This document shows, piece after piece, positions 4,446 to 10,381 of a stretch of DNA of 35,110 nucleotides; position 1 is the stretch's first letter, and each line of letters starts with the position of its first letter. The position numbers were made by a program, and so were the translations under genes. This stretch comes from Desulfovibrionaceae bacterium (GTDB taxonomy: Bacteria > Desulfobacterota > Desulfovibrionia > Desulfovibrionales > Desulfovibrionaceae): positions 1 through 35,110 of the forward strand of contig JADFXV010000032.1 of NCBI GenBank assembly GCA_015233395.1, written 5' to 3'. The notes under the pieces are model-generated. The model did no database searches. It was not told the origin of the DNA and saw only the letters and a program-made list of their open reading frames with translations.

Positions 4446-4916
4446 ATGAAAATTTTGCGAGCGCCGCGCGTCGAGCGCTGCGTGGGGTGCGATTCCTGTT
4501 CGCTGGCCTGCGCGCGGCTGGTGCACAAGCGCATTTCCTGGACCACCGCCGGCATCCGGATCACCTCCTCGGGCGGTCTGAGCACCGGTTTTGAGGCCAA
4601 GATCTGCCTGGCCTGCGATCCCGCGCCCTGCGCGGCCGCCTGTCCGACCGGCTCGTACAGCCAGCGCAAGGGCGGCGGGGTCAGGGTCAAGCCCGACGTC
4701 TGCATCCGTTGCGGCGCTTGCGCCAAGGCCTGTCCGGTGGACGCGATCTACATCGAGCCCGAGACGAACGTTCCCTTCGTGTGCCTGCATTGCGGCCGCT
4801 GCGTGGGGTTTTGCCCGCACCAGTGCCTGGAGATGATCGACGCGCCGGGAACCGCGGACGCGGCGGTCCCGGTCACGGACGCGGCCCAGGAAAAGGAGGC
4901 GTCCCATGCCGGCTGA
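4446..4916 (+). CDS. Four-cluster ferredoxin, electron-transfer partner of aldehyde:ferredoxin oxidoreductase
   Basis: A 156-residue protein with sixteen Cys arranged as four [4Fe-4S] motifs: C12/15/18/22, C54/57/62/66, C86/89/92/96 and C113/116/119/123. The last two form a classic 2x[4Fe-4S] ferredoxin module (CIRCGACAKACP and CLHCGRCVGFCP). The first two are of the DMSO-reductase beta-subunit or HycB type. It probably takes electrons from the oxidoreductase encoded immediately downstream, whose start overlaps its end by 11 bases, so the two are translationally coupled. The ATG at 4446 has AAAGGAG five bases upstream. A reading frame continues upstream through the hairpin repeat but has no Shine-Dalgarno support. 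Confidence 0.9.
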   Translation: MKILRAPRVERCVGCDSCSLACARLVHKRISWTTAGIRITSSGGLSTGFEAKICLACDPAPCAAACPTGSYSQRKGGGVRVKPDVCIRCGACAKACPVDAIYIEPETNVPFVCLHCGRCVGFCPHQCLEMIDAPGTADAAVPVTDAAQEKEASHAG

Positions 4917-6648
4917 ACCGTTTCGCGTGCTCATGGTGGATTTGACCCGGGGCCGGGGCGAATACATTAATTTCGGCGACAAAAACGAGCATTTGGGCGG
5001 TTCCGGTCTGGCGGCGGCGCTGTTTGCCGCGTACGCGGACGTGAGCGCCCCGGCGCTTGCTCCCGAGCAGCCGCTGATTTTCGCCATCGGGCCTTTGACC
5101 GGCTGTTATCCGCTGATGAGCAAGACCGTGTGCGCCTTCAAGTCGCCCTACAACGAGCAGTACGCCGAATCCCACGCCGGCGGGCGTCTGGCCTTGTCCC
5201 TGCGTTTCGCCGGGATCGACGCCCTGGTCATCCGGGGCAGGTCGCCGGTTTTGTCCGCCCTGGCCGTGGGCATCCGCAGGCTCGATTTCGTGGACGTGCA
5301 TTTCCTGCGCGGTTTTGACGTCTTCACCACCGGCAAGCAGCTGCGCAAGCTGCATCGCTCCGGCGCGGGCCACCGCAGCACGCTGCGCATCGGCCCGGCG
5401 GGCGAGAATCAGGTGGCCTACGCCTGCATCAATGTCGACACCTACCGCCATTTCGGCCGCCTGGGCTCCGGCGCGGTCATGGGCGCGAAGAATCTCAAGG
5501 CCATCGTGATCGACGGCGGCAAGAGCCTGCCCGCGCCCGCGGGCAAGGACTACCCCGACGTGTTCAAGGCGATCTACGACCAGGTCGTGGATTCGGGCAT
5601 GATGAAGAAATACCACGACCTGGGCACTCCGGAAAACCTGCTGGCGCTCAACGAACTGTCCGCGCTGCCCTGGAAGAACCTGCAATCGACCAAGGAAGCG
5701 GCCATCGAAAACGTTTCGGGCGAGGCCTTCGCCCGCGACCTGCTTCTGCGCAAGGCGGCCTGCGCCGGCTGTCCGGTCGGCTGCATCCACGTCGGGCTTT
5801 TGCGCGAGAAATACGCCGCCAACAACGACTACCTCTATCGCCAGGTGTCCTACGACTACGAACCGCTGTTCGCCGACGGCACCATGCTCGGCATCACGAG
5901 CGCCTCGGGGATTCTCGCGGTCATGGACGAGATCGAGCGCCAGGGCGTGGACTGCATGAGCGCGGGCGTGGCCCTGGCCTGGGCCACCGAGGCGGCGCAA
6001 AAGGGCGCGATCGGCCTTGCCGAGACCATCGTGCCGCTGGCCTTCGACGACGTGGCCGGCTACCGCGAGGCGGTGCGCCACCTGGGCAACCGCACCAACG
6101 AGTTCTACCGCCTGCTCGGCCAGGGAACCATGGTCGCGGCCGCACAATACAAGGGCGAGGACTACGCCTGCGTGCTCGGTCAGGAAATGAGCGGCTACGC
6201 CACCGGCGAAGTGTTCTACATCTCCCAGGCCATGGGCGTGCGCCATTCGCACCTCGACAGCGGCGGCTATTCCTACGACCAGAAACACACCGACAAGGAC
6301 GCCGTCAAAGCCATCGACTTTTTGGTCGCCGACGAGGCCGACCGGGTGGCGCTGACTTCCATGGTCAGCTGCCTCTTCGCCCGCAACGTCTACACCCCGG
6401 AAACCCTGGGCCGCGCGCTGTCCGCCATGGGCCTGTCCGGCATGGCCGAAAACCTCGGCAAAGCGGCGCGGAACATCCAGAAACTGCGCTGGAAAAACAA
6501 GATCGACTGCGGCTTCAAACCGCGCGAAGTCAAAATCCCCAAGCGCTTCTACGAAGTGACCAACTGGAAAGGCCAAGCCGACCCGGCCTACCTGGAAGAA
6601 CTCAAAACCTACTACGCCTCCCGTATCGAGGCGCTCGTAAGCGCCTAG
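4906..6648 (+). CDS. aor: Aldehyde:ferredoxin oxidoreductase (tungsten/molybdenum pterin enzyme)
   Basis: A 580-residue protein of normal family length, which oxidises aldehydes to acids with ferredoxin as acceptor, in the cytoplasm. The N-terminal pterin-binding domain has GRLGSGAVMGAKNLKAI, a family hallmark. The [4Fe-4S] ligands are C286, C289 and C293 (CAGCPVGC) and C489 (SCLFARN). This spacing is close to that of Pyrococcus furiosus AOR (C288/C291/C295/C494). A DCMSAG motif is also typical. An AAAAGGAGG sequence precedes the ATG at 4906. The gene overlaps the ferredoxin gene, and moaA at 18882-19895 could supply pterin cofactor. The metal (W or Mo) and the physiological aldehyde or acyl substrate cannot be told from sequence. 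Other AOR-family members, such as aromatic acyl-CoA reductases, are possible. Confidence 0.93.
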   Translation: MPAEPFRVLMVDLTRGRGEYINFGDKNEHLGGSGLAAALFAAYADVSAPALAPEQPLIFAIGPLTGCYPLMSKTVCAFKSPYNEQYAESHAGGRLALSLRFAGIDALVIRGRSPVLSALAVGIRRLDFVDVHFLRGFDVFTTGKQLRKLHRSGAGHRSTLRIGPAGENQVAYACINVDTYRHFGRLGSGAVMGAKNLKAIVIDGGKSLPAPAGKDYPDVFKAIYDQVVDSGMMKKYHDLGTPENLLALNELSALPWKNLQSTKEAAIENVSGEAFARDLLLRKAACAGCPVGCIHVGLLREKYAANNDYLYRQVSYDYEPLFADGTMLGITSASGILAVMDEIERQGVDCMSAGVALAWATEAAQKGAIGLAETIVPLAFDDVAGYREAVRHLGNRTNEFYRLLGQGTMVAAAQYKGEDYACVLGQEMSGYATGEVFYISQAMGVRHSHLDSGGYSYDQKHTDKDAVKAIDFLVADEADRVALTSMVSCLFARNVYTPETLGRALSAMGLSGMAENLGKAARNIQKLRWKNKIDCGFKPREVKIPKRFYEVTNWKGQADPAYLEELKTYYASRIEALVSA

Positions 6649-6830: not shown

Positions 6831-6952
6831 CATCATCGAAACGAATCCATCCACCGGCCGGACATCGGAACTATTGATTTGATTGTTCTCCCGGGCGGTG
6901 TCAAATAATCAAAGAGTATAGGTTGGTTATCAGCGTCAGAAGTCGGGGCGGA
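6831..6952 (+). promoter_or_regulatory. AT-rich leader before the TusA-like gene, weak promoter candidate
   Basis: After the repeat, 6874-6922 is AT-rich and contains TTGATTTGATT and, 15-20 bases on, AAATAATCAAA, an imperfect inverted repeat (TTTGATT/AATCAAA). Candidate promoter boxes are TTGTTC (6883) and TAATCA (6906), 17 bases apart, each a weak match to sigma-70 consensus. Confidence 0.3.
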
Positions 6953-7210
6953 ATGCGTTCAAACTATCCGGAACATTGGCGATTCGACGACGAGTTCGAC
7001 GGCGGCGAGGAAACCTGCGGCCGGGTGATCGTCAATCTGTTCACCTATCTCAAGTCGATCGAGCCCGGAACCCGGGTGTTGCTCATCTCCACGGACGCGG
7101 CCGCGCCGGTGGAGTTTCCCGCCTGGTGCCGCATGACCGAAAACGCCCTGCTGGATCAGGCCCATCCCTTCTATCTCATCGAATACAAACCCAAACTGAA
7201 AAAGGAGTGA
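6953..7210 (+). CDS. TusA/SirA-family sulfur-carrier-like protein
   Basis: An 85-residue protein with the TusA-type layout: EEFDGGEETCGR near the N-terminus (C22), a helix, EPGTRVLLISTDAAAP, then PAWCRMTEN and a final strand. C22 lies where TusA carries its persulfide, but the usual CPxP motif is replaced by CGRV, so sulfur transfer is not certain. It resembles the N-terminal domain of the protein at 8436 (FDGGDLDCGS and PPWCRLTGH) and so the two are paralogous. I chose the ATG at 6953, preceded by GGGGCGG, because family members begin about ten residues before the WxFDxEFDGG block. A TTG at 6923 is an alternative. The DsrE-like gene starts four bases after its stop, so they form one operon. 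Likely role: relay of sulfur or selenium in the cytoplasm. Confidence 0.75.
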   Translation: MRSNYPEHWRFDDEFDGGEETCGRVIVNLFTYLKSIEPGTRVLLISTDAAAPVEFPAWCRMTENALLDQAHPFYLIEYKPKLKKE

Positions 7211-7214
7211 CCCC

Positions 7215-7580
7215 ATGGCCGGAAAATTCTGCGTGACCATCACCCATTGCCGCACCGACGGCGACAAGGCCACCTTGGGCTTCGTCGTCGCCAACGCCGC
7301 CCAGGGCAGCGAAAAGGAAACCATGGTCTTTCTGAGCACCGACGGCGTCTACTGCGCCGTCAAGGGCGAAGCCGAAAAAATCAACGAGGGCGCTCCCTTC
7401 GCACCGCTTAAGGAACTCATCAGCAAATACCAGGCCGCCGGCGGCAAGATCTACGTCTGCACCCCGTGCCTGAAAAAACGCGGCCTGGGCGAAGCCGACC
7501 TGATCGAAGGCGCCACCCCGGCCGGCGGCGCGGCCCTGGTCGAATGGCTTGCGTCCGGCTCGCCCAGCGTCGGCTACTAG
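7215..7580 (+). CDS. DsrE-family sulfur-relay protein
   Basis: A 121-residue protein of DsrE/TusD size and fold pattern: short N-terminal strand (KFCVTITHC), helix, central strand ETMVFLSTDGVYCAVKG, then GGKIYVCTPCLKKRGL. C82 and C85 lie in the loop where DsrE/TusD proteins carry the reactive Cys. The partner is probably the TusA-like protein four bases upstream, as TusA hands persulfide to DsrE/TusD in the E. coli and Dsr relays. ATG at 7215 has AAAAAGGAGTG just upstream. Whether it handles sulfur or selenium is open; DsrE-like proteins are among known bacterial selenoprotein families, but this copy uses Cys. Confidence 0.82.
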   Translation: MAGKFCVTITHCRTDGDKATLGFVVANAAQGSEKETMVFLSTDGVYCAVKGEAEKINEGAPFAPLKELISKYQAAGGKIYVCTPCLKKRGLGEADLIEGATPAGGAALVEWLASGSPSVGY

Positions 7581-7710: not shown

Positions 7711-8376
7711 ATGAGTCGTAACGAAACCGGTCAAGCCGCGGCTGCGGCGCCGCATTCCTGCGGATGCGCCCACGGCGGTCGCGCGCAAGACACCCGGGGC
7801 GCTCGGAAGCTCGAATATCTCACTATCGGCTGGAGCCTCGTCGAGGCGGGCGTCGCTCTCGGGGCGGGAATCGTCGCTGGGAGCATTGCGCTCGTCGGCT
7901 TCGGCGCCGACACCCTGATCGAAATCCTGTCGTCCCTGATTCTGTTGTGGCGCTTGGCGTCCGTCCACCCCGACGAGCGGCGCGAACGGATCGCCCTGCA
8001 ACTCGTGGGCGTCTGTTTCTTGCTGTTGGCCGCGTACGTCGGCTACGAGGCCGTTTCCTCGCTCGCTCTCAAAAAACCGCCGGAAGCGAGCTTCGCCGGC
8101 ATGGCGCTGGCCGTCCTCGCCCTGATCGTCATGCCTTTGCTCGCCCGGGCGAAACGGCGCGCCGCCGGACGTTTGCACAGCGCGGCGCTGTCCGCCGACT
8201 CCCGGCAAAGTTCCCTGTGCGCGTATCTTTCCGCCATATTGCTCGGCGGGCTGGTTTTAAACGCCGCCTTCGGCTGGTGGTGGGCCGATCCGGTCGCCGC
8301 CCTGGTCATGCTCCCGATCATCGTCAAAGAAGGGCTGGAAGCCCTGCGCGGCGAAGTCTGCGCGGATTGCCATTGA
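7711..8376 (+). CDS. Compact cation diffusion facilitator (CDF)-family transporter
   Basis: A 221-residue membrane protein with six likely transmembrane segments and the CDF signature GADTLIEILSSLILLW; the A-LSADSRQSSL motif of TM5 also carries a metal-binding Asp. It would move a divalent metal out of the cytoplasm. Unlike typical CDF proteins (about 300 residues) it has no C-terminal cytoplasmic ferredoxin-like domain. Instead both ends are Cys/His-rich: HSCGCAHGG near residue 16 and CADCH at the C-terminus. Start chosen at 7711 with GGGGA upstream; a longer frame reaching back to 7549 runs into the preceding gene and the repeat and is rejected. Substrate is unknown. Its placement between sulfur-relay genes may be incidental or may link thiols and soft metals. 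Confidence 0.8.
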   Translation: MSRNETGQAAAAAPHSCGCAHGGRAQDTRGARKLEYLTIGWSLVEAGVALGAGIVAGSIALVGFGADTLIEILSSLILLWRLASVHPDERRERIALQLVGVCFLLLAAYVGYEAVSSLALKKPPEASFAGMALAVLALIVMPLLARAKRRAAGRLHSAALSADSRQSSLCAYLSAILLGGLVLNAAFGWWWADPVAALVMLPIIVKEGLEALRGEVCADCH

Positions 8377-8435: not shown

Positions 8436-9203
8436 ATGTCCGGCCCACAAAACACTTTCGATCCGGGCGCCGTCGTCCCGGACCGGACCTTCGACGGCGG
8501 CGACCTCGACTGCGGTTCGGGGTTGATCCTTTTGATCCGCGAGAACCTGATCGCGGTTCCGGTGGGCGGCGTGCTCGAAATGCGCTCGCGCGAACCGGCC
8601 GTGGGCGACGAACTCCCGCCCTGGTGCCGCCTGACCGGCCATGAATACCTCGGCCGCCTGCCCGGCGAGAACTGCGTTCGCTATTTCCTGCGCCGGGGTC
8701 GCGCCCCGGCCGAACACGGCGCCGTCAGCGAAGAAGACGCCCTGGCTGCGGACAAACGCCGGGCGCGCGAGTACGAATGGCGGCTGCGCGTGCGCAGCGC
8801 GGGCCATGCGCACAGCACGGTCTATTGCCGCAATTTCTCCTGGGAGCTTGGCCAGCCGGCCAGTTTCGAAGAAAAAGACGCGCGGCCCTGCGCGGTCGAG
8901 GCCGTGCTCGGGGCGCTCGGCAGCGCGCTCGGCTCCGGTTTCGCCGGGGAATGCGCCAGACGCGGCCTTGAAATCGACGATATCGAGCTGACCGTGCGCG
9001 GCCGGCTGCACAACGTCCTGGCCCATCTGGGCCTGGAGCCGGGCGACGCCTCCTTTGCCGCCATCGAAGTCAAATGCTTCGCCTCCACCATGGAGGACGA
9101 GGCCAAGGTGCGCGAGGCCTGGGAGCGCGCGGCCGCCCGCTCGCCCGTGGCCGCCACCTTGGCCAAGGCGGTTGAACTGACCCTGAAACTCGCGGTGGTG
9201 TGA
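8436..9203 (+). CDS. TusA-OsmC fusion protein
   Basis: A 255-residue protein with two recognisable parts. Residues about 15-85 match the TusA-like protein at 6953 (FDGGDLDCGSG with C26, then PPWCRLTGHEYLG). Residues about 105-250 look like an OsmC/YhfA domain: thiol-reactive barrel with C131 (YCRNF) and C152 (ARPCAVEAVLGALGSAL), then the long helix and the strand pattern IDDIELTVRGRL and IEVKCFAS. OsmC/Ohr proteins normally use two Cys; the second, expected after the ALG stretch, is Ser here, so peroxidase activity is doubtful. I infer that the TusA part passes sulfur or selenium to a Cys of the OsmC part. The stop overlaps the start region of the MetE-like gene, so they are coupled. Confidence 0.78.
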   Translation: MSGPQNTFDPGAVVPDRTFDGGDLDCGSGLILLIRENLIAVPVGGVLEMRSREPAVGDELPPWCRLTGHEYLGRLPGENCVRYFLRRGRAPAEHGAVSEEDALAADKRRAREYEWRLRVRSAGHAHSTVYCRNFSWELGQPASFEEKDARPCAVEAVLGALGSALGSGFAGECARRGLEIDDIELTVRGRLHNVLAHLGLEPGDASFAAIEVKCFASTMEDEAKVREAWERAAARSPVAATLAKAVELTLKLAVV

Positions 9204-9205
9204 CC

Positions 9206-10381
9206 ATGTTCACGACAACTCAGGTGGGCAGTTGGCCCAGATCCAAGGATATGCTGCGCGCCCTGCGCGACCGCCGGCTGGGCAAGATAAGCCGCGCCGA
9301 GTTCGACCGCGCGGCCGACGGCGAAGTGCGCCGCACCGTGCGCATCCAGGAAGAGGCCGGACTCGACGTGATCGTCGACGGCGAGCACCGGCGCGACAAT
9401 TTCTATTCCTTCATCACCGAAAAGGTCGAGGGAACCAGGCTGATGAGCCTGGCCGAAATGCTCGACGAGGTCGAGGACAAGTCCGGCTTCGAGGAGATGC
9501 TCTCCACCCTCGACGTCCCGGCCTCGGCCATCCGCAACCCGACCTGCGTGGGCAAGCTGTCGCGCCGCGAACCCCTGGCCCTGGACGATTTCAAATTCGT
9601 CAAGTCGCTCACGGACAAGCCGGTCAAGATCACCTTGCCCGGCCCCTACCTGCTCACGCGCTCGATGTGGGTGACCAACTACACCAAGAAGGTCTATGGA
9701 ACGCAACGCAAAATGGGCGACGAGGTGGTTCGGATTTTGCGCGAGGAGCTCATCGACCTGGCCCGCGCGGGGTGCGAGTTCGTCCAGTTCGACGAACCGG
9801 TGCTGACCGAAGCGGTCATGAGCGAGGATTGCGGCCGCCGCACCTTCATGTGAGCGACTTTGGCCACCCGCCGGGATGTGGGTGAAGAACTGAAGTACGC
9901 CAGCGAATTGATCAACGCCGTCATCGACGGCGTGACCGGGCCGCGCATCGGCCTGCACATCTGCCGGGGCAACTGGAGCACCAAGGAAGAAGTGCTGCTC
10001 ACCGGCGACTACCGGGCGCTGCTTCCGGCCCTGACGAACATGCGCGTGCACCAGTTCGTTCTGGAATACGCCACCCCGCGCGCCGGGGAGATCGCCGTCG
10101 TGGGCCGCGAACTCTCGGGAAACGTGCCGGGCATGACGCGCCCGCGCGAACTGGGACTGGGCGTGGTCAACCCGCGCACGACCACGGTCGAAACCGTGGA
10201 AGACATCATGGCCAAGGCCGAGACGGCCCTTGAATTCTACACGCCCAAACAGCTTTTCCTGAACACCGACTGCGGCTTCGGCTGCTTCGCCAACCGCTGC
10301 GTCAACGTCGAGGAAGTGGCCGCCGCCAAGATCAAAAACATCGCCGAGGCGGCGCGCAGGCTCAGGGAAAAGTACGCGTAA
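9206..10381 (+). CDS. MetE-like zinc methyltransferase (cobalamin-independent methionine synthase family), probable selenoprotein with Sec at TGA 9851-9853
   Basis: One continuous frame of 391 residues with a single in-frame TGA at codon 216. The residue string before it (CGRRTFM) and after it (ATLATRRD) runs on without frame change, and family members, as I recall them, have Cys at this point. The part after TGA holds the zinc ligands: H251 and C253 (GLHICRGN), E287 (LEYATPR) and C356 (NTDCGFGCF), equivalent to E. coli MetE H641, C643, E665 and C726. A SECIS-like hairpin follows the TGA directly. The first half alone would have no active site. The family includes core methionine synthases and epoxyalkane:CoM transferases; the substrate here is unknown. 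ATG at 9206 is preceded by GGTGG; a GTG at 9200 is possible. Alternatives are a nonsense mutation or a sequencing error (TGC to TGA). Confidence 0.75.
9851..9900 (+). promoter_or_regulatory. Candidate bacterial SECIS element directly after in-frame TGA
   Basis: The upper stem pairs 9865-9871 (CACCCGC) with 9878-9884 (GTGGGTG), seven pairs including one G-U. The loop is CGGGAT, six bases with G at positions 2-4. The loop begins 19 bases after the TGA. The lower stem pairs 9854-9860 (GCGACTT) with 9893-9900 (AAGTACGC) with one bulged A, and there is an internal loop between stems. In E. coli fdhF the apical loop is AGGUCU, also six bases, at nearly the same distance. The fold was made by hand without energy calculation. 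Confidence 0.65.

Follow-up and report, generated by a model that had tools for sequence, protein, structure and literature searches.

A MetE-like gene with a conserved in-frame UGA, very probably read as selenocysteine, beside sulfur-carrier genes in a Desulfovibrionaceae bacterium

The window analyzed here, a stretch of 35,110 nucleotides from a Desulfovibrionaceae bacterium, is the whole of one contig of a 3.37-Mb draft genome (G000; 158 contigs, 98.9% complete). It contains a gene cluster that ends in a MetE-like gene interrupted by a single TGA (Table 1). Both TusA-like proteins encoded between positions 6923 and 9203, one free and the other fused to an OsmC-like domain, have Cys-Gly rather than the usual Cys-Pro, and the N-terminal part of the OsmC fusion resembles the TusA gene of the cluster. 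The two cysteines of the TusA-like protein are conserved in relatives, and its weak Pfam score, which is under the cut-off, suggests an undescribed TusA subfamily. The CxxC motif of the DsrE-like protein is present in 61 of 61 relatives. A first-pass annotation of the window had placed OsmC-like and DsrE-like genes next to the MetE-like gene, and the domain matches agree with it; neither the DsrE (CxxC) gene nor the OsmC gene of the window is itself a selenoprotein gene. The cation-efflux gene was found in no other locus compared, only in this genome, and its product has an N-terminal Cys/His stretch, CGCAHGG. An aldehyde ferredoxin oxidoreductase gene (4906 to 6648) lies 5′ of the cluster and was not found beside it in relatives.

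Table 1. Coordinates of the genes and sequence features discussed, with the evidence for each
Feature	Position	Strand	Evidence
TusA-like sulfur carrier (uncertain start codon), first in the conserved cluster	6923..7210	+	PF01206, 23.6 bits, below cut-off
DsrE-like protein, CxxC motif	7215..7580	+	PF02635, 60.9 bits
Cation-efflux (CDF) family protein inside the cluster	7711..8376	+	PF01545, 47.2 bits
TusA-like domain fused to OsmC-like domain, directly 5′ of the putative selenoprotein gene	8436..9203	+	PF02566, 45.5 bits at 148-251
Putative MetE-like selenoprotein gene, 391 codons, predicted Sec at 216	9206..10381	+	PF01717, 113.5 bits; 28 distinct orthologues with same-column TGA
In-frame UGA, predicted selenocysteine, residue 216	9851..9853	+	Aligned U in 28/28 Sec-clade rows, C in 33/33 other rows
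Predicted bacterial SECIS hairpin	9865..9884	+	7-bp stem, 6-nt loop CGGGAU, loop starts 18 nt past UGA
Codons of zinc ligands H251 and C253 (H-I-C)	9956..9964	+	Invariant; matched to E. coli MetE H641/C643 (PMC7857596)
Codons 356-360 (C-G-F-G-C): zinc ligand C356 and Sec-clade-specific C360	10271..10285	+	Alignment

The MetE-like gene ends in TAA, and its translation agreed with the first-pass claim of a 391-codon frame in which the sole TGA is codon 216. A TGA inside a long open frame is not rare by chance in a GC-rich window; 12 places in this one have a TGA between long open stretches (>150/120 codons), and the claim therefore needs a comparative test. That comparison, which is one of aligned sequences, proved decisive for how the TGA is read. 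First, a scan of 84,980 genomes returned 14 loci at 66 to 83% identity, all of them with a TGA in the same column, and the flanking sequence GRRTFMUATLATRRD is almost unchanged across them. Second, the gene was present in 7 of the 99 genomes drawn from the window's own family, with exactly one TGA each, and in 22 of 348 genomes of its class, again with one TGA each. Third, distant homologues (40 to 51% identity), which come from other classes of the phylum and from two plasmids of Paracoccus, are free of TGA and read FMCA or FMCG at the TGA position. When 61 distinct sequences were aligned, 28 had U at column 216 and 33 had C, with no third residue. The TGA was found in 28/28 close orthologues, which are about 66 to 83% identical and span many genera and several families, and the Cys in 33/33 distant homologues. 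The FMCA that the first-pass annotation gave for homologues was thus right, the proposed check for an aligned Cys or TGA in relatives was passed, and the unrelated residues that would have refuted the reading did not appear. The Sec rows form one clade with support of 98/99, recovered in 98% of bootstrap trees. The root of the tree is unsettled because the outgroup branches are too long, and the Cys-to-Sec direction is therefore undetermined.

The genome is a draft of 158 contigs, and one relative, L096, has decayed to the point of lacking its N-terminal half, so the possibility has to be weighed that a TGC or TGT codon was mutated or misread here and that the gene is dead. What speaks against this is that the same TGA occurs in 28 distinct orthologues from many genera and several families; a local sequencing error is ruled out, as dozens of independent assemblies show the TGA. 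Purifying selection is also evident on both sides of the TGA. In the segment 3′ of it, dN is about 0.16 to 0.30 compared to a dS of mostly 0.57 to 1.6, and by comparison of divergence the constraint there is almost equal to that 5′ of the TGA. A pseudogene or an assembly error is refuted by the conserved TGA, and we assign it next to no probability. L096 (G513:C49), itself one of the 28 Sec rows, keeps the UGA motif as IMUATLSTRRD and is a remnant of a selenoprotein gene, a case of gene decay in one lineage.

An in-frame TGA that is apparently translated might also mean that UGA has been reassigned throughout the genome, for instance to Trp. In the window, however, TGA is the ordinary stop codon of the TusA, CDF, OsmC, LeuA, and HtrA genes, which means that the code has not changed as a whole. 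Furthermore, the homologues have Cys at this position, not Trp, and the genome encodes tRNA-Sec and SelB. Reassignment is refuted by the normal TGA stops and can be set aside with near certainty. The absence of selABCD had been named in advance as grounds for rejecting a selenoprotein, and all four genes were found in the genome: selA (612 bits), selB (340 bits), selC, the gene for tRNA-Sec (85.7 bits), and selD (322 bits), each exceeding its curated cut-off. The selD gene of this genome carries one TGA too. The selA, selB, and selD genes were present in all 13 genomes tested. Since selA occurs in 355 of 395 genomes of the phylum (90%), the machinery is necessary for the selenocysteine reading but gives it no specific support, and co-occurrence with the Sec machinery, considered as a link to selenium, was discarded as uninformative.

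Bacterial SECIS elements follow a simple rule: a hairpin lies shortly 3′ of the UGA at a set spacing and has a G in its apical loop. The predicted hairpin meets this rule, beginning about 11 nt past the UGA, and the 50-nt fold has a z of -2.58. All 26 full-length Sec genes have a complete or nearly complete stem, with 7/7 pairs in 24 of them, whereas a stem with 5 or more pairs is found in only 1 of 31 Cys genes. Covariation of the pairs is weak because the bases are nearly invariant, and depletion of synonymous variation was used in its place. Among all 12-codon stretches within codons 1 to 240, codons 220 to 231 show the least synonymous diversity (0.32 compared to a mean of 0.61). Individual codons are fixed or nearly so, with Thr221 as ACC and Arg222 as CGC in 20/20 sequences and Gly226 as GGT in 19/20. 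The hairpin also bears on whether the TGA is a true stop between two proteins, one of 216 residues and another of up to 173 residues made by reinitiation at TTG 9860. An ORF from this TTG does exist. The codons past the UGA, however, are held by a hairpin that the Cys genes lack, the distant homologues are each one unbroken chain with Cys at the site, and a break here would cut the barrel ahead of every zinc ligand, which leaves two separate proteins very improbable.

We consider it very likely that UGA 9851-9853 encodes selenocysteine and that the product is a full-length protein of 391 residues, a conclusion of comparative genomics with no experiment behind it. The selenoprotein reading of the first-pass annotation is thus strongly supported by the same-column TGA, the hairpin, and selABCD, and there is no protein-level evidence. 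According to this reading, SelA, SelB, tRNA-Sec, and SelD, together with the hairpin, would insert Sec at the UGA.

The predicted product matches the MetE catalytic domain, PF01717, well above the cut-off of 21 bits, whereas its matches to the NCBIfam methionine synthase models, both MetE and core-MetE, are all far under their cut-offs. An AlphaFold2 model (mean pLDDT 85.6, pTM 0.89) had its best structural matches in MesD (3rpd; Z 37.2, rmsd 2.4 over 320 residues, 25% identity) and in MetE (1xdj from T. maritima; Z 36.3, rmsd 2.5 over 331 residues). The family alignment shows no variation at the predicted zinc ligands H251, C253, E287, and C356, all of which lie 3′ of the TGA as had been claimed, and the homocysteine-site residues S9, E60, and D196 are present. 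The catalytic positions of MetE and the core synthases, including H641/C643 of E. coli MetE, have been named (PMC7857596), and every one of them has its counterpart here. The description of the protein as a MetE-type barrel stands as far as PF01717 and the zinc residues go, but it is not MetE proper, as it has no folate domain and scores below the MetE cut-offs. More specifically, it shares with MetE (PF01717/TIGR01371; PDB 1xdj, 1xpg) the C-terminal barrel fold, the four zinc ligands, and the three homocysteine-binding residues, and it differs in being only 391 residues long without the N-terminal folate domain (TIGR01371, 113 bits against a cut-off of 930) and in having an inserted loop of about 14 residues that carries Sec/Cys216. 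The MesA-MesD core (folate-independent) methionine synthases (PMC7857596; MesD = PDB 3rpd) are likewise stand-alone catalytic barrels with conserved functional residues, and MesA, MesB, and MesC also come from anaerobic hosts. Unlike these, the protein described here has a TusA/DsrE/OsmC operon and an FM[U/C] loop, and the core-synthase paper makes no mention of selenium (PMC7857596).

Residue 216 is located within an insertion of 14 to 15 residues after the DEP motif. This insertion falls in a gap of MetE alignments, so that no MetE counterpart of the residue could be assigned. Residues 210 to 221 are the sole stretch of three or more with a pLDDT below 50, from which we infer that the loop is probably mobile over the pocket. 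That U216 is near the zinc is inferred from topology, as the loop is poorly modeled. A further difference between the two groups was found at column 360, where all 28 Sec rows have Cys and all 33 Cys rows have Thr; C114 and C209 are also confined to the Sec clade. C360 belongs to a set of about 30 columns by which the Sec and Cys groups differ. Its link to U216 may therefore reflect shared ancestry, and a coupling between the two is a hypothesis. MetE is known to be redox sensitive, and C360, four residues past the zinc ligand C356, occurs only together with U216; Sec216 and C360 might thus form a redox switch, a selenenylsulfide whose role is to protect or regulate the zinc site and not to transfer a group. 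However, Cys216 is kept in 33/33 relatives that have Thr360, which means that residue 216 must act without C360, and we regard such a switch as rather unlikely.

The genes around the Sec loci are arranged in the order TusA, DsrE, TusA/OsmC fusion, and MetE-like. OsmC was present in 36, DsrE in 35, and TusA in 32 of 37 such loci; some of them are truncated by the end of a contig or of the locus. One of the Cys clades has TusA joined to the barrel itself, and this fusion lies 3′ of DsrE and mostly of TusA too (L072, L073, and Paracoccus L067). In the other Cys clade (16 rows), no TusA or DsrE was seen nearby, only OsmC, located downstream, and a sulfur relay is therefore not shown to be obligatory. 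The TusA/DsrE/OsmC operon suggests a sulfur-linked role. Like known TusA/DsrE sulfur-carrier systems, the cluster has neighboring TusA-like and DsrE-like genes with the conserved Cys and CxxC; in contrast to them, its TusA-like proteins have Cys-Gly and are linked to a MetE-like barrel, an arrangement found in no paper.

On Paracoccus ferrooxidans plasmid pFER4 (L067:1357-9571), the order of genes is SufS, TusA, DsrE, a membrane protein, an exported protein, the TusA-MetE fusion, a true selA, and trxB. The exported protein has 522 residues and no Pfam match. The selA gene (565 bits) and trxB follow the cluster, the cysteine desulfurase is at the opposite end, and selB is about 12 to 14 kb away. 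The plasmid cluster combines Sec synthesis with the sulfur module, and its placement of selA beside a Cys-form gene is a suggestive link to selenium, seen in a single genus only.

The first-pass annotation knew of no established Sec form of this family, and the published inventories bear this out. A 2026 inventory, which covers 119 prokaryotic selenoprotein families, includes no MetE/PF01717 member; the methyltransferase selenoproteins it lists are arsenite methyltransferases, a DNA-repair methyltransferase, and MduS-type families (PMC13188914). A word search of a 2022 review found no MetE-type selenoprotein (PMC9312934), none is named in the deep-Sep paper, and no selenoprotein model in NCBIfam (June 2026) matches the protein. 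A literature search retrieved no paper that joins MetE, TusA, DsrE, and OsmC or that describes a Sec MetE. Within the searchable literature, then, a Sec MetE-type protein is absent from the known selenoproteins; unlisted GenBank annotations are not excluded. In other respects, the gene resembles known bacterial selenoprotein genes in its in-frame UGA, downstream hairpin, Cys homologues, and full SelABCD (PMC13188914).

As for function, the product would be a stand-alone zinc enzyme, with a homocysteine-like pocket formed by S9, E60, and D196 and zinc held by H251, C253, E287, and C356. Sec216, on its family-specific and probably mobile loop after the DEP motif, would serve as a low-pKa nucleophile near a zinc-bound thiol. 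Sec216 or Cys216 may then accept from the TusA relay either a sulfane sulfur or an alkyl group bound to a thiol and pass it to a zinc-activated substrate, with C360 as the partner of Sec216. Because TusA and DsrE are encoded alongside and TusA is fused to the barrel in one Cys clade, a TusA-fed transfer is the most likely chemistry. It remains an inference, with substrate and product unknown, and we put it forward as tentative though plausible. A broader proposal, that this is the founding selenoprotein of a new zinc-barrel class defined by a selenol or thiol on a mobile loop, a TusA/DsrE-fed transfer of sulfur or an alkyl group onto a zinc-activated thiol, and a Sec-Cys pair at the zinc site, is more doubtful still. 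Most known selenoproteins are redox enzymes, often with a thioredoxin-like fold. With a conserved Sec in a MetE-type, zinc-dependent barrel, the use of Sec would extend to a new enzyme fold and chemistry. The gene is also liable to be annotated as a truncated protein of 216 residues in the many genomes of sulfate reducers that have it, so that the enzyme escapes notice. The strict division between Sec and Cys forms, the C360 partner, and the TusA fusion offer testable handles on a sulfur pathway undescribed in the searchable literature.

A simpler function would be that of a plain methionine synthase that needs no folate. It would form a fifth Mes-like family, Sec216 would do no more than improve or protect catalysis, and TusA, DsrE, and OsmC would be incidental. 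All the zinc- and homocysteine-binding residues of MetE are kept, and the closest structures, MesD and MetE, are both methionine synthases. On the other hand, the U/C loop is absent from MetE, the link to sulfur-carrier genes persists between widely diverged relatives and extends to the TusA fusions, and each genome tested has a MetH-type protein. The presence of a MetH-type protein makes a housekeeping role in methionine synthesis less likely, although still open, and we judge this function somewhat unlikely overall. In the seven Sec genomes of the window's family, the MetH match is without the C-terminal part of the model. The MetH-like genes of four genomes (G008, G049, G074, and G093) each have one in-frame TAG inside the matched region, which may be the end of the frame, an error, or a recoding event.
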